DNA from: Chiridota heheva
Lineage: Eukaryota > Echinodermata > Holothuroidea > Apodida > Chiridotidae
DNA length: 64,000 nucleotides
NCBI GenBank assembly: GCA_020152595.1
Contig: JAIGNY010002230.1
Span: 302,001-366,000, forward strand
Reading direction: 5' to 3'
Part shown: in pieces, positions 12,501-43,110 of the stretch
Layout: every line of letters starts with the position of its first letter
Position numbering within the stretch: the stretch's first letter is position 1
The notes under the pieces: model-generated
Told to the model about the DNA's origin: nothing
Databases searched by the model: none
Seen by the model: only the letters and a program-made list of their open reading frames with translations
Position numbers and translations under genes: made by a program

Positions 12501-12501
12501 A

Positions 12502-14066: not shown

Positions 14067-14666
<600 letters not shown>

Positions 14667-18224: not shown

Positions 18225-18420
18225 AACTGGAGGTGCAGAAAGCGGGGACAGGGGGAAAACTGTCCCTACGAAAGAATGATTTCGCCTTCTCGGATGCATA
18301 CTTTCTTCCCTGTTTAGACGTGAAATTATGAAAGCTAAAAAATTGAGGAAACAATTTAATGAAATTTTCATAGATTTTGGTACAATTTGTCAACGTGTCC
18401 AAAATATTGAAAGAAAATTT
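18225..18420 (-). repeat. Dispersed repeat R3, partial copy 1
   Basis: The part around GGGGGAAAACTGTCCC and the following 130 bp matches, in reverse, the repeat at 42,760-43,110 and 51,030-51,560, and in the same sense 20,225-20,560. It does not code for protein. Confidence 0.55.
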
Positions 18421-18459
18421 CAAAAGTATTCTTTTAGTGAACAAAATGTAGAGTATAGA

Positions 18460-18828: not shown

Positions 18829-18934
18829 TGAATCACCTGCCTGGAAAACTAGGTGCTTGTTGGCGGAACGTGGGGCACAGGGGAACGTGCCCCCAACTTT
18901 TTTTTTAAGTTTAAAAAGAGTCCTTTTTTAGAAG

Positions 18935-19000
18935 GAAAAGTGCCCTTCTTAAGAAAGAAAAGTGCCCTTCTTAAGAAAGAAAAGTGTCCTTTCAAAGAGG
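18935..19000 (+). repeat. 22-bp repeat, three copies
   Basis: Three tandem copies of GAAAAGTGCCCTTCTTAAGA plus two bases, the last one degenerate. Confidence 0.9.
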
Positions 19001-20224: not shown

Positions 20225-21369
20225 ATGAACTAGAGTCGTAGGATGCGGGGGCAGGGCAGGACTGTCCCCCTGAGCAGCTGAGAGGATTTTACCTTCCCGG
20301 TTGTATGCTTTTTCCCCGGTTTGGAGGTGAAGGTTATTATCATATAGCATTGCAAAAATGTGGTTAAAATATTTGATCATTTGGGTAAAATTTCTGAAAA
20401 CTGGCAAACATTTCCTGAAAACTTACCAAAATTTAACGAAAATTGAAGAAAAATTATCGTAAAAGGAGGACATTTTCCGAAAATGAAAAATGGACGTGGA
20501 TTTCCCGATTAGCAGCAACTTTTGATGGAAACTTTCCTAGTACAATTGTTCCACTAGTCATTAGGATTTTTTTTTTTGGAAGGGGAAGAGGGTGGGCGGA
20601 GGCGAGAGGCGACCCTTCCAAGCCCTGTCTTAAACCCATGTTTTTTGTCATCAAATGTAGCCTATATATTTCTTTTATTGTCAAAACAAGTAATAATTTT
20701 ATAGAACATGGCGACGTCTATTCATTAAATAAACAAATCTTTAATTTTAAGGATTTGACCCCTTAGAATTACTATCTGACGGTTTTGCTAGACCTCTACT
20801 TGTCCACAAAAAAAGTTTTAATGGACTTATAGCAAGAACATAAACAATGAAAATAGCAAACAATGTAATATAATCGGTTAAAAAAATGACCATTTCACAG
20901 CTGCATTTTAAATTTTTAAGGCCGTGTTGTAATAAATTATGCAAATTTCTAGAAATGTTTGAGACATAACATCAAGTTGTCTTAATTTTTTCCTATCCTC
21001 CAACAACAATCTTCATCATACCCTTTATTAAAATTTAGCAGGAGAAAACAAGACTGATTTTCAATAACTGACATTTGAACTTGAAAGCAGAACTTTAAAG
21101 ATATTCAGCTGTCTTCTTATATACTTTAAAACTTTTGTATATATTCTAATTATATTCGAATATATTCTAATTAGCCATATCTTGGAAACTACGGGTGCTT
21201 TTTATGTAACAATTCAAAGACCATTCTGTTCAGTATTTAAGGATCTTTGTGCTTATCAACATCTTTATCTTTTCATGTACACCTTTAAAGCAGGTTATCT
21301 TATCTTTAGCATTTTTGCTGTTAGAATTCTCCATGTGGTTCCACAATATGGCATGTAGAATGCAATGCC
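20225..21369 (+). repeat. Left arm, single-copy-like part of a large inverted duplication
   Basis: This stretch matches 42,035-43,110 in reverse complement. Clear anchors are AGCAGCAACTTTTGATGGAA (20,511) against its inverse near 42,800, CAAACAATGTAATATAAT (20,857) against ATTATATTACATTGTTTG type sequence near 42,500, and TTTAGCAGGAGAAAACAAGA (21,036) against its inverse near 42,335. Its first 330 bp also belong to dispersed repeat R3. Open frames here are short and have no domain. Confidence 0.85.
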
Positions 21370-22790
21370 ATGGCGGTCAATGTGAGATGGCAGGTGGATA
21401 ATAGGTGGGGTGTCGTGTGGGTCATAAGTGGGGTGGCATGTGAATCATAGGTTGGGTGTCATGTGGGTCATAGGTGCGGTGGTATGTGGGTAATAGGTGA
21501 AATGACATGGGACGTAGCTGCGATGGCATATGAGTAAGCGATGGCATATGAGTAATAGGTGTAATGGCATATGGTACGTAGCTGCGATGGTATATGTGCA
21601 ATAGGCGCAATGGCATATGGTATGTAGCTGCGATGGTATGTGGGTCAGGTGCAATGACATATGGTACGTAGCTGCGATGGTATGTGGGTCATAGGTGCAA
21701 TGACATATGTGCAATAAAATATGGTATGTAACTACGGTGATATGTGGGTCATATGTGTAATGGCATATGGTACGTAGCTGTGATGGATGGTATGTGGGTA
21801 ATAGGTGTAATGGCATATGGTACGTAGCTGCGATGGTATGTGGGTAATAGGTGCAATGGCATATGGTACGTAGCTGTGATGGTATGTGGGTAATAGGTGT
21901 AATGGCATATGGTACGTAGCTGCGATGGTATGTGGGTAATAGGTGTAATTGCATATGGAACGTAGCTGCGATGGTATGTGGGTAATAGGTGCAATGGCAT
22001 ATGGTATGTAGCTGCGATGGTGTGTGGGTAATAGGTGCAATGGCATATGGTACGTAGCTGTGGTGGATGGTATGTGGGTAATAGGTGCAATGGCATATGG
22101 TACGTAGCTGTGATGGATGGTATGTGGGTAATAGGTACAATGGCATATGGTACGTAGCTGTGATGGTAGGTGGGTAATAGGTGCAATGGCATATGGTACG
22201 TAGCTGCGATGGTATGTGGGTAATAGGTGTAATTGCATATGGAACGTAGCTGCGATGGTATGTGGGTAATAGGTGCAATGGCATATGGTATGTAGCTGCG
22301 ATGGTATGTGGGTAATAGGTGCAATGGCATATGGTACGTAGCTGTGGTGGATGGTATGTGGGTAATAGGTGCAATGGCATATGGTACGTAGCTGTGATGG
22401 ATGGTATGTGGGTAATAGGTACAATGGCATATGGTACGTAGCTGTGATGGTAGGTGGGTAATAGGTGCAATGGCATATGGTACGTAGCTGCGATGGTATG
22501 TGGGTAATAGGTATAATGGCATATGGTACGTAGCTGCGATGGTATGTGGGTAATAGGTGCAATGGCATATGGTACATCGCTACGATGGCATTTGAGTAAT
22601 AGGTGCAATGGCATATGGTATGTAGCTGCGATGGTATGTGGATAATAGGTGCAATGCCATATGGTACGTAGCTGCGATGACATGTGTGTAATGGGTGCAA
22701 TATCATATGGGACGTAGCTGCGATGACGTGTGTAATGGGTGCAATGTCATATGGGACGTAGCTGAGATGGCATGTGAGTCATGTATGGGA
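21370..22790 (+). repeat. Left-arm satellite, 46-bp dimer of a 23-bp module
   Basis: About 30 tandem copies of a 46-bp unit made of two 23-bp halves, approximately GATGGTATGTGGGTAATAGG+TGC and AATGGCATATGGTACGTAGC+TGC. Some units carry a 4-bp GATG duplication, giving 50 bp. A higher-order repeat of 284 bp (six units) is seen: the rare variant GTAATTGCATATGGAACG occurs at 21,945 and 22,229, with matching variants around it. Minus-strand frames of up to 412 codons over it have the same repeated peptide in all three phases and are not genes. Confidence 0.95.
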
Positions 22791-23924
22791 TGACACGTGG
22801 GTCGTAGGTGGGATGTCATGTGGGTCATAGACAGGATGACATATGGATACAGCTTGGGGTGGATGGTATTGGATAAAGGTTGGGTTTGTGTATAAGAAAG
22901 GGTGAGATCAAATGTGGAACAAATCATAGAGTAGAATGGCATATAAGCCATAGAATGTGATGACTTTAGATATATCACATTGGTGGGATGGAGGCCTGGG
23001 TGGCATGTATGGTTCATATAAATGACAAATGGGGTATAGGGTGGGAGGTCATATGAGACATTGATTGGGATGAAAGGGAAAGAGTGGGATTGCCTATAAG
23101 AACGGTGGAATATCACATTGGACATCAGGAGTGTTGGTATATGGGACGAGAGTGGGATGGCATGTGTGGGATGGTGGATATGATGGCGTGCATATATACG
23201 ACAAGGCGGGTTGTCATATAGGACATTGAGTGGAATGGCATATGGGAGATGGATGGGATGGAATATCAGGCATAGTATTGTATAGCATATGGGGCATAAG
23301 GTGGGATGGAGGATTGGATGTTACATAGGTTTGAATAACGTATACGGCATATATGGTGCGATGAAATGTGTGACGTATGGTCGCTGCATTGATGATGAAT
23401 GTGAAATGCACTGAGATTGGAAATAATAAAGGTTGAATTGCGCATAAGAAATATGGTGGAGTATTACTTGGAAAGTGTGGGATGGATTAATTTCGAAAGT
23501 GTGTAAGACGTAGAGGTGGTTGCTATTTGGTTTGGGACACGGGTGGGATGGCTTATGGCGCTTAGTATAGGATACGGTGAGATACAAGGTTGGATGGCAT
23601 ATGCTACATAGATTAAAATGCCATTTGAAGCTTACTGTCATGTGGGACGTAGGGTGCGATGGCATGTTGGGTATATATGGTGGATAGAATTTATTGGATA
23701 AAGGATGGGATTGATTATAAGAGAAAGGGTGGTATATCATATTGAACATTGGGTGGGTTGGGCGTAAGAGACATGGGTTGCATAAATAGGATAGTGCGTG
23801 TACGACATGGATAGCATATGGTACATAAGTTAAAATGTTACATGGAACATGTGGGTCGTATAGTGAGATCGAAAATATTGGATCGAGGATGAAATTAAAT
23901 ATACGACATAGGGTGGGATATCAC
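22790..23924 (+). repeat. Diverged satellite zone of the left arm
   Basis: Degenerate 23-bp-type sequence without exact period. The part 23,120-23,655 matches 37,940-38,410 in reverse complement in the same order, for example GGTGGATATGATGGCGT (23,173), TGGTGGAGTATTACTT (23,455) and TTACTGTCATGTGGGACG (23,633). A partial direct copy is at 27,220-27,430. Confidence 0.8.
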
Positions 23925-24165
23925 ATGGGACATGGGGCATAGGGTGTAATGTCATATGGGACATAGGTTGTAATGTCACATGAGACATAGGGTGGAATGT
24001 CACATGGGACATAGGGTGGAATAACACATGGGACATAGGGTGGAATGTCACATGGGACATAGGGTGGAATGTCACATGGGACATAGGGTGGAATGTCACA
24101 TGGGACATAGGATGGAATGTCACATGGGACTGAGGGTGGAATGTCATATGGAACATACATTAGGG
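23925..24165 (+). repeat. 24-bp satellite variant
   Basis: About ten copies of a 24-bp unit (AATGTCACATGGGACATAGG+GTGG). Aligned with the 23-bp module it differs mainly by one extra base. Confidence 0.95.
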
Positions 24166-25190
24166 TGTAATGTCATATAGAATAGGGAGATATGTATATG
24201 ATAATGGGTTTGGCGTACACGTATGCGACATAGCGTGGGTTGTCATATGGGACATGGTTTGGGATGGGACATAGTTTGGGATGGGACATATGGTGAGATG
24301 GTATATGGGACATAGGATGTGTTGTCATATGGAACATAAGTTGTCATATGGGGTATTAAATGGGGTGGTATGCGAGACAGGGTTAGGATGGCATGTGAGT
24401 TACAAATTACAACTTTTAAGTTAGAAGATACTGGATAAAGGTGGGATTGTGTATAAGACAAAGTTGGATATCATGTGGGACATTGGTAGGTTTGCATATG
24501 GAATATCGTGGCATGTGCAGTATGTATAGAGGATGCGATGGCGTACACGTACAATCAAAGGATGGGTTACGTAGGAGCATAACATTGGATAGTATATGAG
24601 CATAATATTAGAGTTGGGTGGTACATAGTTGGAATGCCATATGGGGCATATGGTGCGATGGAATGTGGGACGGATAGTATTTGGATAAAGGGGTGGAAGA
24701 TATTACATGGGGGGTGAGATTGCGTATAAGAAATTGCTTGAAATATCATATAGGATATTGGGTGGGTCGGCATATGTATGGAATAAGGTAATATGTATAA
24801 GATGTGGGTTTGGCATACACGTGTGCGACATAGTGTTATATGGGAGATAGTTTGGGATGGGACATATGGTGAGATGGCATATGGGAATAAGGAGTTCAAA
24901 TGGGAATAAGAGTGGATGACGTAGGGATTGACATGTAGATATAGTTGGGATGGGGGGATGGAATGTGGGGCCGGATAGTATTTGGATAAAGGGGTGGGAT
25001 ATTACATGGGGGTGTCACGTGTAACATATAAGAAATTGCTTGAAATATCATATAGGATATTGGGTGGGTCGGCATATGTATGGAATAAGGTAATATGTAT
25101 AAGATGTGGGTTTGGCATACACGTGTGCGACATAGTGTTATATGGGAGATAGTTTGGGATGGGACATATGGTGAGATGGCATATGGGAAT
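24166..25190 (+). repeat. Diverged satellite zone with a 302-bp direct duplication
   Basis: Degenerate module sequence. The segment at about 24,660-24,899 is repeated at about 24,960-25,200 (AAGAAATTGCTTGAAATATC at 24,728 and 25,030), with a shift of 302 bp. The copies include the same long non-satellite stretch, so this is a recent duplication. Confidence 0.88.
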
Positions 25191-27220
25191 AAGAGTGGGA
25201 TGACATGTAGATATAGGATGGGATGGCACGTGTAATATAGGGGGTTGTCAAATGGGAATAAGAGTGGGTTGACATGTATATATAGGGTGGGATGGCACGT
25301 GTAATATAGGGGGTTGTCAAATGGGAATAAGAGTGGGATGACATGTATATATAGGGTGGGATGGCACGTGTAACATAAGGGGTTGTCAAATGGGAATGAG
25401 AGTGGGATGACATAAAGATATAGGGTGGGATGGCACGTGTAATATAGGGGGTTGTCAAATGGGAATAAGAGTGGGATGACATGTATATATAGGGTGGGAT
25501 GGCACGTGTAACATAGGGGGTTGTCAAATGGGAATGAGAGTGGGATGACATAAAGATATAGATAGGGTGGGATGGCACGTGTAATATAGGGGGTTGTCAA
25601 ATGGGAATAAGAGTGGGATGACATGTAGATATAGGGTGGGATGGCACGTGTAACATAGGGGGTTGTCAAATGGAAATAAGAGTGGGATGACATAAAGATA
25701 TAGGGTGGGATGGCAAGTGTAACATAGGGGGTTGTCATATTGGAATAAGAGTGGGATGACATGTATATATAGGGTGGAATGGCACGTGTAATATAGGGGG
25801 TTGTCATATGGGAATAAGAGTGGATGACATGTAGATATAGGTGGAATGGCACGTGTAATTAATATAGGAATTGTCACATGGGAATAAGAGTGGGATGACA
25901 TGTAGATATAGGGTGGGATGGCACGTGTAACATAGGGGGTTGTCATATGGGAATAAGAGTGGGATGACATGTAGATATAGGGGTGGAATGGCACGTGTAA
26001 TTAATATAGGAATTGTCACATGGGAATAAGAGTGGGATGACATGTAGATATAGGGTGGAATGGCACGTGTAACATAGGGGGTTGTCAAATGGAAATAAAG
26101 AGTGGGATGACATGTAGATATAGGGTGGGATGGCACGTGTAATTAATATAGGGGGTTGTCATATGGGAAAAAGAGTGGGATGACATGTAGATATAGGGTG
26201 GGATGGCACGTGTAACATAGGGGGTTGTCATATTGGAATAAGAGTGAGATGATATGTAGATATAGAGTGGAATGGCACGTGTAAATAATATAGGGGGTTG
26301 TCATATGGGAATAAGAGTGGAATGACATGTAGATATAGGGGTGGAATGGCACGTGTAATTAATATAGAGGGTTGTCATATGGGAATAAGAGTGGGATGAC
26401 ATGTAGATATAGGGTGGGATGGCACGTGTAACATAGGGGGTTATCAAATGGAAATAAGAGCGGGATGACATGTAGATACAGGATGGGATGGCACGTGTAA
26501 CATAGGGGGTTGTCATATTGGAATAAGAGTGGAATGACATGTATATATAGGGGTGGAATGGTACGTGTAATTAATATAAGGGATTGTCATATGGGAATAA
26601 GAGTGAGATGACATGTAGATATAGGGTGGGATGGCACGTGTAACATAGGGGTTGTCATATTGGAATAAGAGTGGGATGACATAGATTTAGGGTGAATGGC
26701 AGTAATTATAGGGATTGTCATATGGGAATAAGAGTGAGATGACATGTAGATATAGGGTGGGATGGCACGTGTAACATAGGGGGTTGTCATATTGGAATAA
26801 GAGTGGGATGACATGTAGATTTAGGGTGGAATGGCACGTGTAATTAATATAGAGGGGTTGTCATATGAGAATAAGAGTGGGATGACATGTAGATATAGGG
26901 TGGGATGGCACGTGTAACATAGGGGGTTGTCATATGGGAATAAGAGTGGGATGACATGTAAATATAGGGTGGGATGGCACGTGTAACATAGGGGGTTGTC
27001 ATATTGGAATAAGAGTGGGATGACATGTAGATTTAGGGTGGAATGGCACGTGTAATTAATATAGAGGGGTTGTCATATGGGAATAAGAGTGGGATGAAAT
27101 GTAGATATAGGGTGGGATGGCATGTGTAACCTAGGGGGTTGTCATATGGGAATAAGAGTGGGATGACATGTAGATATAGATAGGGTGGGATGGCACGTGT
27201 AACATAGGGTTGTCATATGG
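25190..27220 (+). repeat. Left-arm satellite, 69-bp trimer of the 23-bp module
   Basis: About 29 copies of a 69-bp unit. It divides into three 23-bp thirds: GGGAATAAGAGTGGGATGAC+ATG, TAGATATAGGGTGGGATGGC+ACG and TGTAACATAGGGGGTTGTCA+TAT. Some units hold a 4- to 6-bp ATTAAT insertion in the last third. Minus-strand frames to 318 codons (repeating TTPYVTRAIPPYIYMSSHS-type peptide) follow from 69 being a multiple of 3 and are not genes. Confidence 0.96.
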
Positions 27221-27700
27221 CACGGAGTGGGATGATGCATGGTGGATATGATCGCGCACCTGTATAAGATAAGAGGGTGGGATGTATTATGGGTCATGTG
27301 TGGAATGGTATATGAGAAATGGATGAGAGGGTATATGAGGCCTAATATTGTATTGTCTATAGAACATAAAGGTGGGACAGACTCAAGGGTCGGATGTTAT
27401 GGTTCATATATTTTAGTGACGTATGAGGTATAGGGTGTGATGATATGGGTGACGTGTGATGGCTTCCTCGGTGGTGTTTGCGTGTGGACTAAGATATCAA
27501 ATGGGAAATAGGGTGGGGTGGGATGTATTATTGGACATGTGCGGGATTGCGTACAGTTAAGATATGGACAGAGATATGAGACATATGCAACAGAGTGGGA
27601 CGGAATAGTGGAACTGATGACGGACATGTCTAAAACAGGATAACCACATAGAGTGGCATAGAGATTCAAATTACGGGTCATAGGGTGGGATATCAATAGG
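27221..27700 (+). repeat. Second copy of the diverged left-arm zone
   Basis: GGTGGATATGATCGCGCACC and the following 200 bp resemble 23,170-23,340 in the same orientation, so the left arm carries this segment twice, on either side of the 24- and 69-bp arrays. Confidence 0.65.
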
Positions 27701-28389
27701 TGGGGATGTTCTTTTAGATGGGAGGTTGTGATGACATAGTTTGTCTCTTTTGTGCTAAGCTTATTTTAGGGGAGGTTTTTTTTTAGTTTACCAGAAAGAG
27801 CTCTTAGGTTTAAAAGTTTGAAATTTTAATGAATGCAAAAGTTGTTGTTGTTTTAATTCCTGTTTATTGTAATCAGCTCCTCCCAATCAATATATTTGGG
27901 GGAAGGACCGAAAAACAAAGTCAATAACAACAAATTTATTGGTATATCATTCTAATATCCACAAATTATTACGCAATTTATGCTAAAAAGGTATCTAAGT
28001 TTAAAAATGCTGTTAAATGTTTTTTAAGATATTCTGGTGTTGTTACTTTGTTCATGCTTGGTGTTTAGTATAGGCCTATTGTAAACCCTTTAAGCTTGGG
28101 ATGTTGAGTTGAGTACCATTATCTCAACAGATCAGATTTAAAATTTCCAAAGTAACGTTATCGGTCATGGCTGATGTATGTGTCTGGGTGAACAGCTCAA
28201 AATATTTATGTAATTTATTATAAAACCCGACAAAGACAAATTTAAGAACATTGTAACTTTAAAAGTGTAGCTTTAAAGTAGTAAATTTAAAATTGCAATC
28301 TTTAAGTTACAACTTGCACAAAATTTAAATGTATAATTTTAAAGGTACAACATGCATGAATTAGTATTTTGATTTTTATACTAGTAAAT
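27701..28389. other. AT-rich spacer between AT-side and GC-side satellites
   Basis: Non-repetitive AT-rich DNA with short TTTAAA-type runs. I see no gene. Confidence 0.55.
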
Positions 28390-29430
28390 CTGGACGCGAG
28401 GGGAGTAAATCAGGGACTTTTCAAATGCAGTTTATGGGCGCGGACCCGGGAGGGACTTGGGCGCGACCGAGGGGACTAAATCTGAGTAGCTGACTTTTCA
28501 AATGGGGATGCCGGCACGCACATGCGAGGGGACTTGGGGGAAGCTGGAAAATGGGGAGGGACTTGTCTTGCTAGACGAGGACGGAGGGATGGGAAGCGGG
28601 AGGGAGCGCCGGACGCCGGGGACTGGGCGCCAGACGAGGAGGTCTTGGGCGGACGCGACTTGATGCCGGACGCCGGAGAGATTTGGGCGCCGAGGGAGGG
28701 AGGGACTTGGCGCTAGACGAGGAGGGAATTTGGGCGGACGCGGAGGGACTTGGGCGGGCGCGAGGGGACCGGTGCGGACGCCGAGGGGGACTTGCAGACG
28801 AGGACGCTGGAGCGCGGGGCGGAGGGAGCGCGTGGACGCGGAGGGACTTAGGACTTTGGCGGACGCGGAGGGACGCGTGGGGGCGGACGCGATGGGGACT
28901 TAGGCGCCGGGGACTTAGCTGGACGCGGGAGAGATTTAAGGGGAGGGGGCGCGGGGGGACTTCGGCGCGGACGCGGAGAGATTTGGCGTGGAGGGGGCGC
29001 GGAGGACTTGCGACGCAGGACGCCGGAGGGGACGCCGGGGACTTAGGCGCGGGGGACGGCACGGAGGGACTGGACGCCGGGGACAGAGCGCTGGGGGCTG
29101 GGGACTTGGCGCGACGGAGGGACTTAAGCGCCGGACGCCGGAGGGACTTACGGGACGCCGCGGGACGGGGACGCTGGGACTGGGCGCCGGGGACGCTGGG
29201 ACTTGGGGAGCGGGGCGCCGGGGGACTTTGGCGCGGGACGCGGGGGGGACTTTGGCGGGGACGCTGGGACTTTGGCGCTTGGGGACGGGGACTTTAGCGC
29301 GGGGACGGGGACTTGGCGCGGGACCTGGGACTTTTGCTGGACGCTGGGACTTTGCGCCGGACGCGGGGACTTGGGCGGACGCGGGGACTTTACGCTGGGG
29401 GGACTTTAGGGGACGCCGGGACTGGGACTT
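28390..29430 (+). repeat. GC-rich minisatellite sub-block 1, GGGACTTGGGCGC type
   Basis: Irregular GC-rich repeat alternating GACGCGGAGGGACTTGGGCG-like segments of uneven length. The change from the AT-rich spacer takes place over about 60 bp. All open frames in it are low-complexity Arg/Gly or Pro/Ser runs. Confidence 0.9.
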
Positions 29431-29830
29431 TGAGGGGGACGTGGGAGGATGACGGGGGAGGGGGGACTTGAGGGGGACGGGGACTTGAGGGGGACGCGGG
29501 ACGGACTTGAGGGGGACGCGGACGGACTTGAGGGGACGGACGGACTTGAGGGGGACGCTGGACGGACTTGAGGGGGACGCGGGGACGGACTTGAGGGGGA
29601 CGGGACGGACTTGAGGGGGACGCGGGACGGACTTGAGGGGGACGGGGACGGACTTGAGGGGGGGACGCGGACTTGAGGGGGAGCGGACGGACTTAGGCGC
29701 TGGACGCTGGACGGACGCGGGACGGACTTGAGGGGGACGCGGACGGACTTGAGGGGGACGGGCCGGACTTGAGGGGAGGCGAGAGGGACGGACTTGAGGG
29801 GGGACGCGGCGCAGAGGGACGGACTTGAGG
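29430..29830 (+). repeat. GC-rich sub-block 2, 21-bp unit
   Basis: About 19 copies of GGACTTGAGGGGGACGCGGA plus one base, with frequent 1- to 3-base length changes. Confidence 0.93.
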
Positions 29831-31905
29831 GAGGGACCCCGGCGAGAGGGACCCCGGGAGGGACCCCGGCGAGAGGACGCTGGCGAGGGACCCCGCGGAG
29901 GGACGCTGGCAGAGGGACCCCGGCAGAGGGACGCTGGCGAGAGGACCCCGGGAGGGACTTGGCGAAGAGGGACCGCGGGAGGGACGCGATGAGGCGAGGG
30001 ACCGGCGGAGGGACGCTGGCGAGGGACCCCGTGGGCGGAGGGACGCTGGCGGAGGGGACCCCGCGGGGGCCATGGAGGACGGGAGGGACAGAGGGACCCC
30101 GGCGGGAGGGACGCGGGCGAGAGGGACCCCCGGCGGGAGGGACGCGGGCGAGAGGGACCCGGGGAGGGACGCTGGCGAGAGGGACCCCGGCGGGAGTGGA
30201 CGCGGGCGAGAGGGACCCGGCGGGAGGGTGGAGGGACGCGGGAGGACGCTGGCGAGGGACCCGCGGGGGCCTTGGCGGGAGTGGACGAGAGGGACCCCGG
30301 GGGGAGGACGCTGGCGAGGGACCGCGGGGGGGGACGCTGGCGAGAGGGACCCTGGCGGAGTGGACGCTGGCGAGAGGGACCGGGCGGAGGGACGCGGGCG
30401 AGAGGGACCGGCGGAGGGACGCTGGCGAGAGGGACCCGGCGGGAGGGACGCTGGCGAGAGGGACCCCGGGGGAGGGACGCTTGGCGAGAGGGACCCGCCG
30501 GCGGGAGGGACGCTGGCGAGAGGGACCCCGGGCGTGGAGGGACGCTGGCGAGAGGGACCCCGCGGGAGGGGCGAGAGGGGACCCGGGCGGGAGGACGCTG
30601 GCGAGAGGGACCCGGCGGGAGGGACGCGGGCGAGGGACCCCGGGAGGGACGCTGGCGAGAGGGACCCCGGCGGAGGGACGCTGGCGAGAGGGACCAGGCG
30701 GAGGGACGCTGGCGAGAGGGACCCGCGGGAGGGACGCTGGCGAGGGACCCGGCGGGAGGGACGCTGGCGAGAGGGACCCGGGCGGAGGGACGCGGGCGAG
30801 AGGGACCCCCGGCGGGAGGGACGCTGGCGAGAGGGACCCGGGCGGGAGGGACGCGATGGCGAGAGGGACCCCGGGCGGAGGGACGCTGGCGAGGGACCCC
30901 GGGCGGAGGGACGCTGGCGAGAGGGACCCCGGGCGGGAGGGACGCTGGCGAGAGGGACCCCGGCGGGAGGACGCTTGGCGAGACCCGGGGAGGGACGCTT
31001 GGCGAGAGGACCCCGGCGGGAGGGACGCTGGCGAGAGGACCCCGGGGGGGAGGGACGCGGGGAGAGGGACCCAGGCGGAGGGACGCTGGCGAGAGGACCG
31101 GAGGCGGAGGGACGCTGGCGAGGGACCCCGAGCGGGAGGGACGCTGGCGAGAGGGACCGCGGGAGGACGCTGGCGAGAGGGACCCGGGCGGAGGGACGCT
31201 GGCGAGAGGACCCCGGGCGGAGGGACGCTGGCGAGAGGGACCCGCGGGAGGGACGCGGGAGGCGAGAGGGACCCCGGCGGGAGGACGCTGGCGAGAGGGA
31301 CCCCAGCGGGAGGGACGCTGGCGAGAGGACCCCGGCGGAGGGGACGCTGGCGAGGGACCCCCGGCGGGAGGGACGCGGGCGAGAGGGACCCCCGGCGGGA
31401 GGGACGCGGGCGAGAGGGACCCCCGGCGGGAGGGACGCGGGCGAGAGGGACCCGGCGGAGGACGCGGGCGAGAGGGACCCCGGCGGAGGGACGCGGGCGA
31501 GAGGACCCCGGGCGGAGGGACGCTGGCGAGAGGGACCCCGGCGGAGGGACGCTGGCGAGAGGACCCGGCGGAGGGACGCTGGCGAGAGGGACCCGGCGGG
31601 AGGGACGCTGGCGAGAGGACCCCTGGCGGAGGGACGTGGGCAGAGGGACCCCCGGGCGGGGGACGCTGGCGAGAGGGACCGGGCGGAGGGACGCTTGGCG
31701 AGAGGGACCCCCGGTGGAGGGACGCTGGCGAGAGGACCGGGCGGAGGGACGCTGGCGAGGGACCCCGCGGGAGGGACGCTGGCAGAGGGACCCCGGCGGG
31801 AGGGACGCTGGGCGAGGGACCGGGACGGGGAGGACGCTGGCGAGGGACCCCGGGCGGAGGGACGCTGGCGAGAGGGACCCGCGGGAGGGACTTGGCGAGA
31901 GGACC
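29830..31905 (+). repeat. GC-rich sub-block 3, 30-bp unit
   Basis: About 70 copies of a unit of about 30 bp joining GAGAGGGACCCCGGCGGGAG and GGACGCTGGC. Unit length wanders by a few bases through small changes in G and C runs. Confidence 0.94.
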
Positions 31906-33140
31906 GGGAGGGACGCGGGCGAGAGGGACCCAGGGAGGGCGGGAGGACTCGGAGGACTCGGGAGAGGGACCCGGGAGTGGGACGCGGGCGAGAGGGACCC
32001 CCGGGAGGGACTGGCGAGAGGGAACCCGGGAGGGACTCGGGCGAGAGGGAACCCCCGGGAGGACTCAAGGCGAGAGGGAACCCCGGGAGGGACTCGGGCG
32101 AGAGGGGAACCCCGGGAGGGACTCGGGCGAGGGAACCCCGGGAGGGACTGGCGAGAGGAACCCGGGAGGGACTCGGGCGAGAGGGAACCCCCGGGAGGGA
32201 CTCGGGCGAGAGGGAACCCCGGGAGGGACTCGAGGGAATCCCCGTGGAGGGGCGAGAGGGAACCCCGGGAGGGACTGGGGAGGGAACCCCGGGAGGGACT
32301 CGGGCGAGAGGGAACCCCCGGGAGGGACTCGGGCGAGAGGGAACCCCCGGGAGGGACTCGGGCGAGAGGGAACCCCCGGGAGGGACTCGGGCGAGAGGGG
32401 ACCCCGGGAGGGACCCGGGCGAGAGGGAACCCCGGGAGGGACTCGCTGGCGAGAGGGGAACCCCGGGAGGGACTCGGGCGAGAGGGAACCCCGGGAGGAC
32501 TGGCGAGAGGGAACCCCGGGAGGGACTCGGGCGAGAGGGAACCCCGGGAGGGACTCGGGGGAGGGAACCCGGGAGGGACTGGCGAGAGGGAACCCCGGAG
32601 GGACTCGGCGAGAGGAACCCGGGAGGGACTCGGGAGAGGGAACCCCGGGAGGGACTGGCGAGGGAACCCCGGGAGGACTCGGGCGAGAGGGAACCCCGGG
32701 AGGGACTCGGGCGAGAGGGAACCCCGGGAGGGACTCGGGCGAGAGGGAACCCGGGAGGACTCGGGCGAGGAACCCCGGGAGGACTCGGCGAGGGAACCCC
32801 CGGGAGGGACTCGGGCGAGGGGACCCCGGGAGGGACGGGCGAGAGGGACCCCGGGAGGGACTCGGGCGAGAGGGGACCGGGAGGGACTCGGGCGAGAGGG
32901 GACCCGGGAGGGACTCGGGCGGGAGAGGGACCCGGGGAGGACTCGGGGGGACTGGCGAGGGACCCCGGGAGGGACTCGGGCAGAGGACCCCAGGGAGGGA
33001 CTCAGGCGAGGGGACCCCGGGAGGGACTCGGGCGGGAGGGACCCCGGGAGGGACTGGGCGGAGGGACCCCAGGGAGGACTGGGCGAGAGGGACCCCAGGG
33101 AGGACCTCGGGCGAGAGGGACCCCAGGAGGGACTTGGGCG
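31905..33140 (+). repeat. GC-rich sub-block 4, 28-bp unit
   Basis: About 44 copies of GAGAGGGAACCCCGGGAGGG+ACTCGGGC. Sub-block 3 passes into it by replacing GGACGCTGGC with GGACTCGGGC and GGGACC with GGAACC. Confidence 0.94.
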
Positions 33141-33640
33141 AGAGGGAGACCCATGGCGATGGGCGGCGAGAGGGAGACCCGGGCTGGCGGCGGCGAGGGG
33201 AGACCCGGCTGGCGGCGGCGAAGAAGACCCGGGGCGGCTGCGAAGAAGACCCGGGCGGCGGAGAGGAGACCCGGGCGGCGGCGAGAGGAAGACCAGTCTG
33301 GGCGGCGAGAGGGAGACCAGTCTTGGCGCGCGATAGGGAGACCCGGGCGGCGCGACCATAGGCGGCGGCGAAAAGGGAGACCGGGGCGGCGCGTGAGAGA
33401 CCAGGGGCGGCGGCGAGAGGACGACCCGGGCTGGCGGCGGCGAGAGGGAGACACGGGGCGGCGGCGAGAGGGAGACCCGGGACGCACCGGGCGTGAGACC
33501 CGTGACGCACCGGCCGTGAGACCCGTGACGCACCGGGGCGTGAGACCCGCGACGCACCGGAGCGCCAGACCCAAAACAAACCGGGGCACCAGAGATCCGG
33601 GATTCACCGGAGCGCCAGACCGGGACGGCTGTGGCGCCAG
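33140..33640 (+). repeat. GC-rich sub-block 5, 22- to 24-bp units
   Basis: Units of GAGAGGGAGACCCGGGCGGC plus GGC, then from about 33,480 CGTGAGACCCGTGACGCACC+GGG. This is where GAGACC first replaces GGGACC. Confidence 0.88.
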
Positions 33641-34090
33641 GGACAAGTGGCGGCGCACCGTGGCGCCAGAGACGACTGGCGGCGCACCGTGGCGGCGCAC
33701 TGTGGCGCCAGAGACGAGTGGCGGCGCACCGTGGCGCCAGAGGCGAGTGGTGGCGCAGTGGCGCCAGAGACGAGTGGAGGCGCACTGGGGCCGGAGACGA
33801 ATAACGGCGCACCGGGGCCAGAGACGAGTGGCGGCGCACCGTGGCGCCAGAGACACGAGGCGGCCCACCGTGGCGCCAGAGGCGGGTGGCGGCGCACCGT
33901 GGCGCCTTTGGCGATCGGCGGCGCACCGTGGTGCCAGTTACGAGTAGCAGCGCACTGGGGCCCGGAGACGAGTGGCGGCGCACCGGGGCCGGAGACGAAG
34001 GCGCGCGACAGAACCGAGACGCCGCACTGGGGCCGGAGACGAGTGACGGCGCATTAGAACCGGAGACGCGCACCGGGGCCGGAGACGAGT
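33640..34090 (+). repeat. GC-rich sub-block 6, 29-bp unit
   Basis: About 15 copies of a unit with GCGCCAGAGACGAGTGGCGG+CGCACCGTG, containing the palindrome GGCGCC. Confidence 0.92.
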
Positions 34091-34590
34091 GGCGGCGCAC
34101 TAGGGCCGGAAACGCGCACCAGGGCCGGAGACGCGCGACCAGGGCCGGAGACGCGCGACCAGGGCCGGAGACGCCGCGACCAGGGCCGGAGACGCGCGAC
34201 CAGGGCCGGAGACGCGCGACCAGGGCCGGAGACGCGCGACCAGGGCCGGAGACGCGCGACCAGGCCGGAGGAGACGCCGACCAGGGCCGGAGACGCGCGA
34301 CCAGGGCGAGACGCGCGACCAGGGCCGAGAGCGCCGACCAGGGCCGAGACGCCGACCAGGGCCGAGACGCGCGACCAGGGCCGAGACGCGCGACCAGGGC
34401 CGGAGAAGCGCGACCAGGGCCGGAGACGCGCGACCAGGGCCGGAGACGCGCGACCAGCGCCGGAGACGCGCGACCAGCGCAGGAGACGAGACGCGCACCG
34501 GGCCGAAGACGCGCGAGTGCCGGAGACGCGACCAGGCAGGAGACGACGCGCGCACCGGGCCAAGACGCGCGAGGGGGTAGGAGACAAAAG
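34090..34590 (+). repeat. GC-rich sub-block 7, 20-bp unit
   Basis: About 23 copies of CGCGCGACCAGGGCCGGAGA. It is highly CpG-dense. Confidence 0.94.
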
Positions 34591-35720
34591 GGGCGACCGA
34601 CAGGAGACGAGGGGCGACCGGGACGGAGACGAGGCGCGACCGACGGAGACGAGGGCGCGACCGGGACAGGAGACGAGGGGCGCACCGGGACAGGAGACGA
34701 GGGGCGCACCGGGACAGGAGACGAGGGGCGCACCGGGACAGGAGACGGCGACCGGACGGGAGACGGGCGCACCGGACGGGAGACGAGGGGCGACCGGGAC
34801 GGAGACGAGGGGCGACCGGACGGAGACGAGGCGCACCGGACGGGAGACGAGGGGGCGACCGGGACAGGAGACGTGGAGACAGGAGACGAGGCGACCGGAC
34901 GGGGAGACGAGGGGCGACCGACAGGAGACGAGGGGCGACCGGACGGAGACGAGGGGCGACCGGGACGGGAGACGAGGGGCGACCGACGGGAGACGAGGGG
35001 CGACCGGACGGGAGACGAGGCGACCGACGGGAGACGAGGGGCGACCGGGACGGAGACGAGGGGCGACCGACAGGGAGACGAGGCGACCGACGGAGACGAG
35101 GCGACCGACGGAGACGAGGGGCGACCGACGGGAGACGAGGGGCGACCGGGACGGAGACGAGGGGCGACCGACCGGACGGAGACGAGGCGCACCGGGACGG
35201 GAGACGAGGGGCGCACCGGGACGGGAGACGAGGGGCGACCGGACGGGAGACGAGGGGCGACCGACGGAGACGAGGGGCGACCGGGACGGAGACGGGGCGC
35301 ACCGGGAGGGGACGAGGGGCGACCGGACAGGAGACGAGGGCGCACCGGGACGGAGACGAGGGGCGACCGGACAGGGAGACGAGGGCGACCGAGGGAGACG
35401 AGGGGCGACCGGACGGAGACGAGGGGCGCACCGGGACGTGGGAGACGAGGGGCGACCGACGGGAGACGAGGGGCGCACCGGGACGGGAGACGAGGGGCGC
35501 ACCGGGACGGGAGACGAGCGACCGGGACCGGGACGAGGGGCGACCGGAGGGAGACGAGGGAGCGACCAGGGACGGGAGACGAGGGCGACACCGGACGGGG
35601 ACGGGAGCGACCGACGGGGGCGCACCGGACGGGAGACGAGGGGCGACCGGGACGCGACCGGGCAGGGACGAGGGCGCACCGGGACGGGAGACGAGGGGCG
35701 CACCGGGCAGGGACGGAGAC
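34590..35720 (+). repeat. GC-rich sub-block 8, 22- to 24-bp unit
   Basis: About 50 copies of GAGACGAGGGGCGACCGGGA+CGG or the GCGCACC variant. The plus strand is almost free of T here. Confidence 0.94.
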
Positions 35721-36925
35721 GAGGGTACGCAGGGGACCGACGGGAGACGAGGCGCACCGGGGACGGGAGACGCAGGGGAGCACCGGGCGGAGACGAAAGG
35801 GGCGCACCGCACGGGAGACGAGGAGCGCACCGGGCGGAGACGAGGCGACCGGGCAGGGACGAGGGGCGACCGGGCAGGGACGGGAGACCGGGCAGGGCAC
35901 GCAGGGGAGCGACCGGGCGGAGACGAGGCGACCGGGCGGAGACGAGGCGCACCGGGCAGGGAGACGACCGGGGGAGCGCACCGGGCAGGGACGAGGCGCA
36001 CCGGGCGGGACGAGGGGAGCGACCGGGCAGGAGACGAGGGGGCGACCGGGCGGAGACGAGGGAGCGACCGGGCAGGGAGACGAGGGGCGCACCGGGCAGG
36101 GAGACGAGGCGCACCGGGCGGGAGACGAGGAGCGCACCGGGCGGGACGAGGCGACCGGGCGGGGACGAGGGGCGCACCGGGCAGGAGACGAGGGGCGCAC
36201 CGGGCAGGGAGACGAGCGCACCGCAGGGTACGCGCACGGGCAGGGCGGAGACGGAGGCAGGGCACCGGGCGGGCAGGGGGGAGACGCAGGGGCGACCGGG
36301 CGGAGACGAGGGGCGCACCGGGCGGGAGACCGGGCAGGGAGGGAGCGCACCGGGCAGGGAGACGAGGGAGCGCACCGGGCGGGACGAGGGGCGCACGGGC
36401 AGGGGCGGAGGCAGGGTACGGTGAGCGCACCGGGCAGGGTACGAGGCGCGACCGGGCGGATACAGGGGAGACCGGGCAGGGTACGAGGGGAGCGCACCGG
36501 GGCAGGGTACGAGGGGAGCGCACCGGGCAGGGATACGAGGAGCGACGGGGCAGGGCGGCATACGAGGAGACCGGGCAGGATACGAGGGAGCGCACCGGGC
36601 GGATACGAGGGAGCGCACCGGGCGGATACGAGGGGCGCACAGGGTGAAGGGGGCGGGCAGGGTACGAGGAGGCGCATCGGGCGGATACGAGGGGAGCGAC
36701 CGGGCAGGGGTACGAGGGGATACGCAGGGTACGCAGGAGCGCACCGGGGCAGGGTACGAGGGGAGCGACCGGCAGGGGATACGAGGGCGCACCGGGCGGG
36801 ATACGGGGCGCACCGGGCGGATACGAGGAGCGCAGGGGGCAGGATACGAGGGGGCGCACCGGGCGGGATACGAGGGCGCACCGGGCAGGATACGAGGGCG
36901 ACCGGGCAGGGTACGAGGGTGACAG
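35720..36925 (+). repeat. GC-rich sub-block 9, 23- to 25-bp unit
   Basis: Units of GAGACGAGGGGCGCACCGGG+CAGG, from about 36,420 mostly with GGGTACGAGG or GGATACGAGG. Confidence 0.93.
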
Positions 36926-37310
36926 GGCGAGGGGACCGGGCAGGATACAGAGGGGCGCACCGGGCAGGAGACAGAGGGGCGCACCAGGAGACAGGAGGGC
37001 AGGAGACAGAGGGGCGCACCGGGCAGGAGACAGAGGGGCGCACCGGGACAGGAGACGAGGGGCGCACCGTGACAGGAGACAGAGGGGCGCACCGGGACAG
37101 GAGACAGAGGAGCGCACCGGGACAGGAGACAGAGGGGCGCACCGGGACAGGAGACAGAGGAGCGCACCGGGACAGGAGACAGAGGAGCGCGACAGGAGAC
37201 AGAGGGGCGGGACAGGAGACAGAGGGCGCGGGACAGGAGACAGAGGGGCGCACCGGGACAGGAGACAGAGGGGCACGAGACAGGAGACAGAGGGGCGACC
37301 GGGACAGGAG
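36925..37310 (+). repeat. GC-rich sub-block 10, 25-bp unit
   Basis: About 15 copies of GAGACAGAGGGGCGCACCGG+GACAG with few changes; one of the most uniform parts of the GC block. Confidence 0.95.
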
Positions 37311-37930
37311 ACGAGGCGCACTGGAGCAGGAAACGAAAGGCGCACTGGAGCAGGAGACGAGGGGCTCACCGGGGCAGGAGGCGAGGGACACTTATTGAGG
37401 GAGGAGACAGAGGGGCGCACCGGGGAAGGAGACGAGTGGCGCACCGGGGCAGAAGAGTGGCGACCGGGGCAGAAACGAGGGCGCACTGGGGCAGGAGACG
37501 AGTGGCGCACCGGGGCATGAAACGAGGGGCGCACCGGGGCATGAAACGAGGGGCGCACCGGGGCAGGAGACGACGGGCGCATAAGGACAGGAGACAGCGG
37601 GACTCACTGAGGAGAAGACAAGAGGGGCGCACTGGGGCAGGTGACGAGGAACGCGCCGGGGCAGGAAACGGGGGCGCACTGGGGTAGGAGACGAGGGGCG
37701 CACCAGGACAGGAGACCAGGGGCGTACCGGGGCAGGAGACCAGGGGCGTGCCGTGGCAGGAGACGAGGGGCACACCGGGGCAGGAGATGAGGGGCATCGG
37801 GTAGGGAGACGAGGGGCGACCGGGTAGGGAGACGAGGGGCGCACCGGGGTAGGAGACGAGGGGCGCACCGGTGGAGGAGACGAGGGGCGCACCAGGGGGG
37901 GAGACGAGGGGCGCACCGGGAAAGGAGACA
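37310..37930 (+). repeat. GC-rich sub-block 11, 24-bp unit, and right junction
   Basis: About 25 copies of GAGACGAGGGGCGCACCGGG+GCAG. The array stops abruptly at about 37,930 (AAAGGAGACATGCC), where the right arm begins in opposite orientation. Confidence 0.94.
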
Positions 37931-38690
37931 TGCCATCGTCCCACATGACAGTATGTTTCATACGTCATTTTAACCAATACAATTTAATATGCCATCCATT
38001 CTTCCATCTCACCGTATGCCTCATATGCTATCTGCCATAAGCCATTGTTCCATACGCCACCTTAAACTATGTTCCACATGTTAGCCAACTTTTTGTCGTT
38101 TTCGCCATTGCACTCACTATCCCATCCCCCGTATCGCACGTAATACTCCACCATTACGCAATCCAATTCTCTATCCATTATCATGCATATACGTCGTATG
38201 TCATTCAAACCTATACCAAACCCTCACCTTATGCTCCATATGCCAAACAATACTATGCCTTGTATTCCATCCCATGTCCGATAGGCCATTCCACTCGATG
38301 ACAACCCGCCCTCTATAATATACATGAACGCCATCATATCCACCATCTTACACATGCCATCCCACGCCGTCCCATATACCAACACTCTCGATGTCAAATA
38401 TGATATTCCACCATTCTTATACGCAATTTCACTCGTTACCTTTCATCCCAATCAATGTTTCATATGACCTCCCACCCTATGCCCTATATGCCATTTCATC
38501 TTATGAACAATATGTGCCACCCAACCCTCCATCCTATCTTGTGTCGATTGTGATGTATCCAGTGTGCCATCATATTCTGTCTCAAATGCTATTCTACCCC
38601 ATGTCCCACATTTCATCTCACCCTATTTCTTATATACAACCGTTTAACCTTTGTCCAATGCCGTCAACCCCGAGCTGTATCACTGTCATC
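37931..38690 (-). repeat. Right arm, diverged zone inverse to 22.8-23.7 kb
   Basis: Reading in reverse complement, this zone follows 23,655 back to about 22,800 in order. Shared stretches include CTGTCATGTGGGAC, GTGGAGTATTAC, TGGTGGATATGATGGCGT and CATAGTATTGT. Periodicity is weak. Confidence 0.8.
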
Positions 38691-41600
38691 CCATCTATGA
38701 CCCACATGCATCCCATTTTGACCCACATGTTATCCCATCTATGACCCCATGCCATCTCAGCTACGTCCCATATGACATTGCACCTTTACCCACTGCCATA
38801 TCAGCTACGTCACATTCCACCCGCACCTACGACCAACATGCCAACCCACATATGATCCACATACCATCCCACCTATAAACCCCATGTTATCACATATATG
38901 ACATACATGCCATCTCACCTACGTCCCATATGCCATTCAACCTATGACCCATATACCATCCCACCTATGACCAACATGCCAACCCACATATGATCCACAT
39001 GCCATCCCACATATGATCCACATGCCATCCCACCTATGACCCACATGCCATCCCATCTATGACCCATATGTCATCTCTTTTATGACCAACATGTCATCTC
39101 AGCCACGTCCCATATGTCAGTCCAAATATGCCCACATACTACCCCACCTGTGACCCACATGCAATCCCACCTATGACCCACATGCCATCCCACCTATGAC
39201 TCACATGCCGTGAACCACATGCCTCCCCACATATTATCCACGTGGCACCCCACCTATGACCCACATGCCATCCCACCTATGATCCGCATGCCATCCCACC
39301 TATGATCCACAAGACATCCCACCTACAACTCACGTGCCACCCTGCCCATAACTCACACGCTACCCCACCTATGACCCACATGCCATCCCACCTACGATCC
39401 TTATGTCATTCCACCAATAACCAACATGCCATCCCACCTATGATCCACATGCCATTCCACCTACGACTCACATGCCATGACTTACATGCCATCTCACCCA
39501 TGACCGAAATGCCACCTCACCCACTACCCATATGCCACCCCACCTATGACCCACATGCCATCCCACCTATGCCCCACATGCCATCCCACCTATGATCCAG
39601 ATGCCATCCCACTTACGACTCACATGCAATCCCACCTACGACTCACATGACACCCACCTATGAACAAACATGCCATTCCACCTACGACTCACATGCCATC
39701 TCACCCGTGACCCACATGCCATCGCACCTATGATCCACATGACATCGCATCTATGACCCACATGCCACCTCACCCATGACCCACATGCCACCCCACCCAT
39801 GACCCACATGCCACCCCACCCATGACCCACATGCCACCCCACCCATGACCCACATGCCACCCCACCTACGATCCACATGCCACCCCACCTATGGCCCACA
39901 TGCCATCCCACCTATGGCCCACATGCCATCCCACCTATGATCCACATGCCATCGCACCTATGATCCACATGTCATCTCATCTACGTCCCATATGCAATTA
40001 CACGTATTATCTACATGCCATCTCAGCTACGTCTCATATGCGAGTTAACCTATGACCCACATAGCACCCCACCAATGACCCACATGCCATCCCATCTATG
40101 ACTTACATATTATACCATGAACCACATGCCACCCCACATATTATCCACATGGCACCCCACCTATGATCCACATGCCATCCCACCTATGATCCACATGCCA
40201 TCCCACCTATGACCCACATGTCATCTCATCTATGACCCACATGTCATCTCATCTACGTCCCATATGCAATTACACCTATTATCCACATGCCATCTCAGCT
40301 ACGTCCCATATGCCAGTTCACCTATGAACCACATAGCACCACACCTATGATCAACATGCCATCCCACCTATGATCCACATGCCCTCGGACCTACAACTCA
40401 CATATCATCTCATCTATGACCCACATGCTACCCCACCTATGATCCACATGCTTTTCCACCTACGACTCACATGCCATCTCACCCATGACCCACATGCCAC
40501 CTCAACTATGATCCACATGCCATCGCACCTATGACCCACATGCAATCCCACCATGACCCACATGTAATCCAACCTTTGACCCACAAGCCATCCTACCTAC
40601 GACTCACGTGCCACCTTACCCATAACCCACATGCCATCCCACTTATGATCCACATGCCATCCAACCTACGACTCACATGCCACATGACCCACATGTCACC
40701 CCACCCATGACCCACATGCCACCCCACCTACGATCCACATGTCATCCCACCTATGACCCACATGCCATCCCACATGCCATCCCACCTATGGCCCACATGT
40801 TACCCCACCTATTATTCACATGGCACCCCACCTATTATTCACATGGCACCCCACCTATGATCCACATGCCATCCCACCTATGACCCACATGTCATCTCAT
40901 CTATGACCCACATGTCATCTCATCTATGACCCACATGTCATCTCATCTACGTCCCATATGCAATTACACCTATTATCCACGTGCCATCTCAGCTACGTCC
41001 CATATGCCAGTTCACCTATGAACCACATAGCACCACACCTATGATTAACATGCCATCCCACCTATGACCCACATGCCCTCGGACCTACAACTCACATATC
41101 ATCTCATCTATGACCCACACGCTACGCCACCTATGATCCACATGCTTTTCCACCTACGACTCACATGCCATCTCACCCATGACCCACATGCCACCTCAAC
41201 TATGATCGACATGCCATCGCACCTATGACCCACATGCAATCCCACCATGACCCACATGTAATCCAACCTTTGACCCACAAGCCATCCTACCTACGACTCA
41301 CGTGCCACCTTACCCATAACCCACATGCCATCCCACTTATGATCCACATGCCATCCCACCTACGACTCACATGCCACATGACCCACATGTCACCCCATCC
41401 ATGACCCACATGCCACCCCACCTACGATCCACATGTCATCCCACCTATGACCCACATGCCATCCCACATGCCATCCCACCTATGGCCCACATGCCATCCC
41501 ACATGCCATCCCACCTATGGCCCACATGCCACCCCACCTATTATTCACATGGCACCCCACCTATTATTCACATGGCACCCCACCTATGACCACATGCCAT

Positions 41601-42030
41601 CCCACCTACGACTCACGTGCCACCTTACCCATAACCCACATGCCATCCCACCTATGATTCACATGCCTTACCACCTCACCCACGACCAACATGTCACCCC
41701 ACCTATGACCAACATGCCATCCCAACTATGACTCATATGCCATGAACCACATGCCACCCCACCCATTATCCACATGGCACCCCACCTATGACCCACATGC
41801 CATCCCACCTATGATTCACATGCCATCCCACCTACGACTCACGTGCCACCATACCCATCACCCACATGCCATCCCACCTACGACTCACATGCCACCTCAC
41901 CTATGACCCACATGCCACCCCACCCATGACCCACATGCCACCCCATCCATGATCCACATGTCAACCCACCCACCTATAACCAACATGCCGTCCCACCTAT
42001 GATCGACATGTCATTGCACTCTACATTCCA
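38690..42030 (-). repeat. Right-arm satellite, 23-bp module
   Basis: About 140 copies of a 23-bp unit, GATGGCATGTGGGTCATAGG+TGG on the minus strand, including dispersed variants with CAGCTACGTCCCATATG (inverse of the left-arm second half). It is the same module as the left arrays with opposite polarity. Confidence 0.96.
40208..41600 (-). repeat. 694-bp direct duplication inside the right-arm satellite
   Basis: A block of about 30 modules recurs with a shift of 694 bp: the rare variant GCCCTCGGACCTACAACTC is at 40,381 and 41,075, with the same series of variants on either side. A diverged part of the block is also seen at 39,960-40,080. Confidence 0.9.
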
Positions 42031-43110
42031 TATTAAAAAACCACATGGAGGTTTTCAACAACAATGATAAGAAGAACTCTGAAGTAATAGCATGTTGGAT
42101 CTAAATTTTATCAGGATGTGCTATAGAACAAATCCCTCATTTACAGGTATATGGACAGATTTGTAATATTCACCACAAAGATCCATAAATACTTAACAGA
42201 ATAGTCTCTAATTATGTCAAAAGCACCCATAGTTTTTAAGATATGACTAATTAAAATATATACAAATATTTTGATGTTTTTAAGAAGACCGTTGTTAAGT
42301 TCTCTCCTAAATGTCAGTCACTGAAAATCAGACTCGTTTTCTCCTGCTAAATTTTAATAAAGCGGTATGGAGATTCAAAACGTTGTTAAAGGATTGAAAA
42401 ACAATAAGTTGTGTTATGTCTTAGTTCTTATAAATTTGCATAATGTATAATAAGACTTGAAAACTTAAAATACAGCAGTAAAGTGGTCATTTTTTAACCA
42501 ATTATATTACATTGTTTGCTATTTTCATTGTTTATGTTGTTGCTATATGATCTTTAATCAATACTTGTTTTTTTGTGGACAGGTCTCTAGAGGCCTACTG
42601 AAACAGGCAGGGAGTAATTCTAAGGGCTCAAATCCTTAAAATGAACATGTATCACAGAAATATGAATATTTTCAAAATATGATGCAAAAAACCATGGGTT
42701 CAAGACAAGAGGTTTGAAGGGTCATCTCTCAGTAGACCCAAAGATAGTTCTGGTGACAAGTGGAAAAATTGCACTGGTAAATCAAGTTTCTATCAAAAGT
42801 TGCTGCTATCGGAAAATCTACGTTAATTTTCTTTAAATTTCCTCCTTCGCGTGAATTTTTCTTCAATTTCGTTCAATTTTTGTTTGGCCAATTTTCGGAA
42901 ACGTTGGGTCAGTTGTCGGGAAATGTTAGTTAATTTTCGGGAAATGTTGGCCAGTTTTTGGGAAATTTTACCAAAATACTCAATAATTCCCTTGCAACTT
43001 TATATTAATAATTTCCCAATTTCAACGCCCAAACGGGAAGAAAGCACGCAACAAGGGGACGGTTTTCCCCATTTCCTACGACTGGTTCAAGAAAATTTGT
43101 CCATCTTGAT
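42031..43110 (-). repeat. Right arm, AT-rich part of the inverted duplication
   Basis: Inverse counterpart of 20,225-21,369, in matching order and directly next to the satellite as on the left. An open frame of 125 codons (42,851-43,228) lies over the TTTTCGGGAAATGTT-type part of repeat R3; its repeated NFREML-like peptide reflects DNA repetition, not a gene. Confidence 0.85.

Follow-up and report, generated by a model that had tools for sequence, protein, structure and literature searches.

The stretch analysed here (the window) is a 64,000-nucleotide segment of the Chiridota heheva genome, contig C2210:302,001-366,000, and was compared with the whole of that genome (1.10 Gb, 3,744 contigs; C-numbers denote contigs). 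Its central part holds two satellite-bearing arms of opposite sense, a left (L) and a right (R) one, around a spacer (SP) and a core rich in guanine and cytosine (GC). Each arm carries an AT-rich outer domain (FD), a tandem satellite and an inner diverged zone (ID). We interpret this central part, with moderate confidence, as the middle of a composite repeat of roughly 31-41 kb that is dispersed in the genome and present at several loci. The L and R arms belong to two separate, old lineages of a single satellite-carrying repeat; they recur facing each other together with their outer flanks, and the tandem arrays between the arms are GC-rich at most loci, with a unit specific to the locus.

The left arm (20,089-23,667) is colinear in reverse with the right arm (43,244-37,928), with scores far above those of shuffled sequences: local alignment gives 456.5 for the outer flank, against a maximum of 93 among 100 shuffles, and 395 for the inner zone (22,762-23,667 versus 38,760-37,928), against a maximum of 51.5 among 50 mononucleotide shuffles. 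This bears out an earlier note on this DNA, which had proposed by eye that the two arms run in the same order but in opposite sense. Its four anchors do stand in mirror order (20511/42792, 21034/42336, 23456/38140 and 23635/37938), three of them exact on both sides and the fourth, AGCAGCAACTTTTGATGG, only over the first 16 of its 18 letters. The arms it delimited are real, but their similarity reaches about 135 bp further out than it had placed it, to 20,089 and 43,244, beyond which none rises above shuffles (48.5, with 60 shuffles averaging 47.8 and reaching 71). The inner limit lies at 23,667/37,928, the right arm passing there into the GC-rich core without a gap, and both borders of the 23-bp array are common to the two arms, which measure 3.6-5.3 kb, or 8.3 kb if SP is counted. 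Masked flank pieces are 73-76% identical by BLAST. The arms are old and not a recent mirror copy, as had been suspected. Kimura two-parameter distances over ten ungapped pieces are 0.12-0.27; ungapped identities between the arms are inflated, shuffled controls with equal gap costs averaging 73-76% (three pieces). Nothing striking in the alignments points to recent conversion between the arms, for which no formal test was made.

Among the 34 pieces of 69 bp in the satellite of the left arm, 21 match best at a single place in the right array, 40,236-40,335, and three more at a duplicate of that place near 40,954-41,029; the left array would therefore seem to have arisen by re-amplification of a single dimer. 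Two further candidate similarities were rejected. A BLAST match between 7.7-9.0 kb and 46.5-47.9 kb is read as a dispersed repeat, because further partial copies in both orientations lie at 11.6-11.9 and 44.3-45.4 kb, and an FD fragment suggested by short BLAST pieces at 51.1-51.6 kb did not exceed control blocks in full alignment.

FD, ID and SP are dispersed repeats across the genome, with at least 59 matches for FD (query 20,225-21,225, self included), at least 45 for SP, at least 152 for ID and at least 69 for the FD of the right arm; all such counts are lower bounds, and absence among the matches listed means little. The earlier note's proposal to look for the same architecture elsewhere gave a positive answer, and its suggestion of a giant satellite-carrying element comes close to the picture given by the genome. 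Several family loci lie deep inside contigs up to 2.3 Mb long, which does not speak for the centromere or heterochromatin nucleus that it had also considered.

Kinship among the arms runs across loci. Among the matches listed, the best for the left arm is at C3117 (ID 90%, SP 87%), and the best for the right arm by BLAST are at C161 (86%) and C2416 (87%). In an FD tree of 11 sequences (889 columns kept, no row dropped), built with IQ-TREE, with ultrafast bootstrap (UFBoot), and with FastTree, the right arms of the window and of C3668 form a clade with C161 and C2416 (UFBoot 99; FastTree 0.995), the left arm of the window groups with that of C3117 (UFBoot 97), and the left arms of the window and of C3668 fall outside the R clade. 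The two arms are therefore not sisters, either in the window or in C3668. The left arm of C2, C1390, C734 and the left arm of C3668 have no resolved placement (49-63). In the FD alignment the two arms of the window are 79% identical; the left arm is 86% identical to that of C3117, and the right arm 86, 85 and 84% identical to those of C3668, C2416 and C161. The right sides of C2 and C3668 align poorly to ID, where C2 shows SP-like sequence instead, and the right side of C2 does not align to FD. Arms cluster by side, C1373 and C2 being exceptions.

Orientation was tallied by reducing 152 match rows to 117 arms on 99 contigs. Nine of the 15 neighbour pairs within 45 kb face inward, none outward, and six are direct, all of the latter from C3373 and C1622. 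With the window left out, inward pairs exceed an expectation of 1/4 (P=0.010) and also exceed outward pairs (P=0.004); by locus, 8/10 are inward (P=4e-4). At C2, outside this tally, an inverted C-rich 23-bp array and the right outer flank stand on the far side.

The outer flanks follow the same arrangement. The right one matches (75-90%) at C1595(+), C161(-), C1390(+), C2(-), C3668(+), C3714(-) and C3363(-), and in all seven of these other loci it lies opposite SP and points inward, C3363 being weaker; it is partly a common repeat, with at least 30 further matches listed that start some 110 bases later. On the left, 9.5-12.4 kb matches at C3117 (both ends), C1622, C2, C3668, C1390, C161 and C1776, and 16.1-20.1 kb at C3117 (both ends), C1622 and C1390; this flank stands on the SP side at C2, C3668, C1390, C161, C3117 and C1622. 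L and R sides are thereby found together at eight loci (window, C161, C2, C3714, C3363, C3668, C1390 and C1595), facing each other at 8/8, and both outer flanks serve as evidence at five of them (window, C2, C3668, C161 and C1390). First-to-last spans are 31.5 kb at C1390, 32.5 at C161, 33.0 at C2, 35.1 at C3668, 40.2 at C1622 and 40.9 kb in the window, where the right limit is the place of the C1622 match; the contig end of C1622 matches the window's far right flank. Two other loci are of note in their own right: C3117:497,886-552,772 is a larger palindrome of the family, with a 28-kb core and flanks 82-91% like the left flank of the window in most pieces, and C3373:162,213-175,296 holds four FD-like copies in direct orientation, spaced by about 3-5 kb; another one lies at 141,726.

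Features of the inverted composite and its flanks (window positions)
Feature	Positions	Strand	Evidence
Left outer flank	9500..20088	+	Pieces also present to the left in other composites
FD of left arm, AT-rich outer domain	20089..21345	+	L-R alignment
23/46-bp satellite of left arm	21346..22850	+	Best matches of 69-bp pieces in right array
ID of left arm, inner diverged zone	22850..23667	+	L-R alignment, genome matches
Additional satellite with 24- and 69-bp units, confined to left arm	23668..27220	+	Same 69-bp unit at C3117
SP, spacer	27700..28376	+	Genome matches of SP
GC-rich core, left part: GGACTT, then GGGACGC / GGGACCCCGG units	28390..33150	+	
Core, transitional units	33150..34550	+	
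GC-rich core, right part: GAGACGAGGGGCGCACCGGG units	34589..37929	+	
ID of right arm, directly adjoins core	37928..38686	-	L-R alignment
23-bp satellite of right arm	38687..42014	-	
FD of right arm	42015..43244	-	L-R alignment, genome matches
Right outer flank	43289..43750	-	Recurs opposite SP at seven other loci

None of the 44 non-self SP matches listed extends past 28,376; just after that point the short string GAGTAGCTGACTTTTC is common to the window, C3117 and C161, and the GAGACGAGGGGCGCACCGGG array of the right core has weakly similar arrays (68-76%) at C2416, C161, C2543 and C3. Between the arms, the array unit beside SP or satellite differs from locus to locus, several arrays being seen only up to the edge of the sequence stretch examined. 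It is TGTGACTCTGTTAAGAGT then CGGCCCTGGCGACTCTGGAGAGCCGGCC at C3117, where the far side repeats the 18-bp unit in reverse; AGTTGTTGCAACTTTAG then GGACCAGACGACCCCGGACC at C2; of CTCCCGGTCCGGGTCCCCGGT type at C3668; CTTCAAAGTTGTTACAA then CCTCCGGTCCGGGGTTCC at C1373; a 25-bp unit at C1390; GTTGCGACTTGAG then GCTCCAGCCCGGGGAGCGCAACGAC at C2342, with a 13-bp unit reversed on the far side; CGGACTCTGCCGGG at C3228; TCCCAGCGCCGGGCC at C3206; 20-21-bp CGCGCGCAC at C3714; and, at C161, GTGACTGTGGTAGAGG beside SP and AGACGAGACGAGGGGGAAGGG near the right arm. Peak GC is 0.73-0.80 at eight of the nine loci measured (window, C3117, C3668, C2, C1373, C2342, C3228 and C3206).

Since arms, inward pairing and outer flanks all recur across loci, we take the whole composite to be the dispersed unit. 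The unit of left arm, core and right arm would have been copied whole, as a foldback-type non-autonomous element or as a segmental duplication; its arms would then decay after copying, while the central minisatellite may turn over by unequal exchange, its unit being replaced at each locus. A host function is neither shown nor needed. A more specific version, in which the composites are giant foldback units with a loop that acts as a hot zone of recombination, where minisatellites seeded at low or modest GC by SP would be rebuilt centreward into GC-rich ones, independently at many loci and by GC-biased repair, is tentative and in our view doubtful. At C2, C1373, C3117 and C2342, arrays of 23-60% GC next to SP do pass inward into arrays of 65-79% GC, and at C3117 the 18-bp unit retains GACTCTG..AGAG while turning GC-rich; the window and C3206 are without an AT-rich array of that kind beside SP.

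A number of observations weigh against a composite copied as a whole. The contrast between the arms is smaller in the FD alignment (79 versus 84-86%) than by BLAST; the SP-bearing arm of C1373 joins beside the R clade (85), and the right side of C2 bears SP-like sequence. Sides were assigned after the data had been seen, and their assignment is firm at 5/8 loci, the L side of C3714, C1595 and C3363 coming from SP alone and the R side of C3363 being one 75% match. C3117 is flanked by L-type sequence at either end, and its FDs are 89% alike; direct copies occur at C1622 (three SP copies) and C3373, many arms are without a partner among the matches listed, and the left outer pieces of C1390 are not colinear with the window. 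The core of C3714 reaches only 0.54-0.61 GC, and no minisatellite follows one SP of C1622 within the 1 kb examined. A Pfam scan of 10 open reading frames (ORFs) found no transposase, the genome itself not having been searched for one. No target-site duplication above random pairs was found at 20,089/43,244, which is probably not the end of the unit, and no unit end was found.

This lack of recognised ends is what one would also expect of old segmental duplications of a single region, for example a subtelomeric or pericentromeric one, that is not mobile and whose ancestral block already contained the inverted satellite structure. Homology in pieces from at least 9.5 to 43.75 kb of the window fits such blocks, as do the loci of C161, C1595, C1622 and C2416 near contig ends; contig ends are, however, also expected at unassembled satellites, the loci of C2, C1390, C1373 and C3228 lie well within Mb-size contigs, and a search for TTAGGG telomeres found three contigs among the matches listed, none of them a family locus. 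We regard this explanation as unlikely. A dispersed satellite repeat that inserted twice independently, the copies coming to face each other across a minisatellite by chance or preference, would account for arms at many places, for window arms that are not sisters and for the direct clusters; the outer flanks, however, are also common to loci on matching sides, which is not expected from independent insertion, and outward pairs number 0/15, so that we hold this to be unlikely as well. A local inverted duplication of one satellite segment, the amplified inversion of the earlier note, would place both satellite borders and both flanking zones in mirror order, but it is highly improbable, given that both arms have nearer relatives on other contigs than in each other and that similar composites exist elsewhere in the genome.

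The core itself (28.4-37.93 kb) is 75% GC and shows no inverted self-similarity by BLAST. Over 28,400-37,929, T makes up 4.4% of the + strand, and motifs resembling G-quadruplexes occur at 38.6 per kb on that strand only; arrays almost without A or T also exist at C2 and C3668. Differences between units are mostly single-base indels at 29,411-29,800, 30,090-33,152, 34,102-34,550 and 34,589-37,288 (indel/substitution ratio 1.7-9.3); for five other arrays of the window this ratio is 0.17-1.09. At the core edge, 37,289-37,888, substitutions amount to 10-11% and the ratio is 0.24-0.42. We read the base-level sequence of the core as doubtful, the indel pattern being one that fits a poor consensus in GC/GA-rich sequence; consensus error is favoured over age because older edges should not carry fewer indels. 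A HiFi coverage gap in GA-rich sequence of the human genome is on record (PMC9186530, as far as its available text goes). A segment inside the core, 33.6-34.0 kb, has only 0-4% indels, which speaks against a simple error reading. A lag test on unit variants, contrasting error with real indels, was mixed, with a weak lag-5 excess at 34,589-37,000 (equalled in 7/500 shuffles), so that it is the indel/substitution ratios which carry the error reading.

Hidden genes in the core were considered and rejected, a 2,661-aa ORF being explained by the near absence of T on the + strand. Within the window, neither ARAGORN (tRNA) nor Rfam at gathering threshold gave a match, and no IMG/VR or GTDB patterns were found; Pfam on the 10 ORFs gave two sub-threshold matches, DUF7773 at 1,199-1,474 and RVT_1 at 46,208-46,450. 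Other repeats of the window include a 4.6-kb, 20-bp satellite, GGTGCGTCAAAACATTGAAA, at 57,944-62,551, with a CpG observed/expected ratio of 1.47 (58,000-62,500) and strong sharing between neighbouring units; a 540-bp palindrome at 6,936-7,475, similar to miniature inverted-repeat transposable elements and 85% self-complementary by BLAST; and fragments resembling long interspersed nuclear elements at 45,408-46,383 and 17,112-17,621, each with about 30-40 copies among the matches listed (84-90%). A repeat of about 266 bp at 10,291-10,556 has more than 20 copies among the matches listed and has spread recently, as these are 94-97% identical.

Satellite-bearing inverted ends are already known, and the anatomy of the family (outer domain, tandem repeats, inner domain, variable middle) resembles, on a larger scale, that of foldback elements such as Tetris. 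Among foldback traits we find long inverted arms, possibly terminal, which are separate old lineages; modular arms of outer flank, tandem repeats and inner domain; and dispersed copies of the same structure. A foldback with near-identical ends was dropped after the genome searches and the FD tree. Tetris of Drosophila virilis, in the available account (PMC4079207), has inverted ends made of an outer flanking domain, a tandem-repeat outer domain and an inner domain, a variable middle with no apparent coding capacity, and a link to satellite DNA. Its ends measure at most 1,735 bp, with repeats of ~220 bp and target duplications of 8-10 bp, whereas in the window family the arms measure 3.6-5.3 kb, the units 31-41 kb and the repeats 23 bp, the core is GC-rich, and no duplication of a target site was found. 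The Tm1 Mutator/Foldback family, as described in the accessible part of PMC3169594, likewise has long inverted ends consisting mostly of short tandem repeats in variable number, but it also has repeats of 14 bp, motifs at its termini and target duplications that are mostly 9 bp long, none of which was found in the window family.

Other systems share single traits. The oyster Cg_HINE Helentrons (PMC7492417) are dispersed and carry satellite-like arrays between two flanking modules; in the portion of that source available, these are a left and a right module that bear short subterminal inverted repeats and a 3' palindrome, whereas long arms in inverted orientation are not part of the structure. 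The palindrome of the mammalian immunoglobulin heavy chain (IgH) 3' regulatory region (PMC9936319) is a long inverted duplication around a central segment, and its sequence varies between species; it is a single regulatory locus with enhancers, for which the excerpted text describes no such multi-locus family, whereas the window family is without evidence of regulation. Human Y palindromes are also large inverted repeats, for which GC-biased conversion is reported (PMC3723533, in the text available), but their arms are >99.9% alike through conversion, compared with the 73-76% by BLAST of the window arms. Literature searches in open-licence PMC listed no multi-locus family of 31-41 kb units whose loops are specific to the locus and mostly GC-rich.

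If our interpretation of a dispersed composite is correct, the foldback-like architecture, known from Tetris with arms up to 1.7 kb, would also exist as 31-41 kb multi-locus units with fast-changing, mostly GC-rich loops. The many parallel copies within one genome would then allow the birth of minisatellites, the loss of arm similarity and the enrichment in GC to be dated against each other, and the family may account for gaps in the assembly of such genomes and for noise in their GC-rich sequence.

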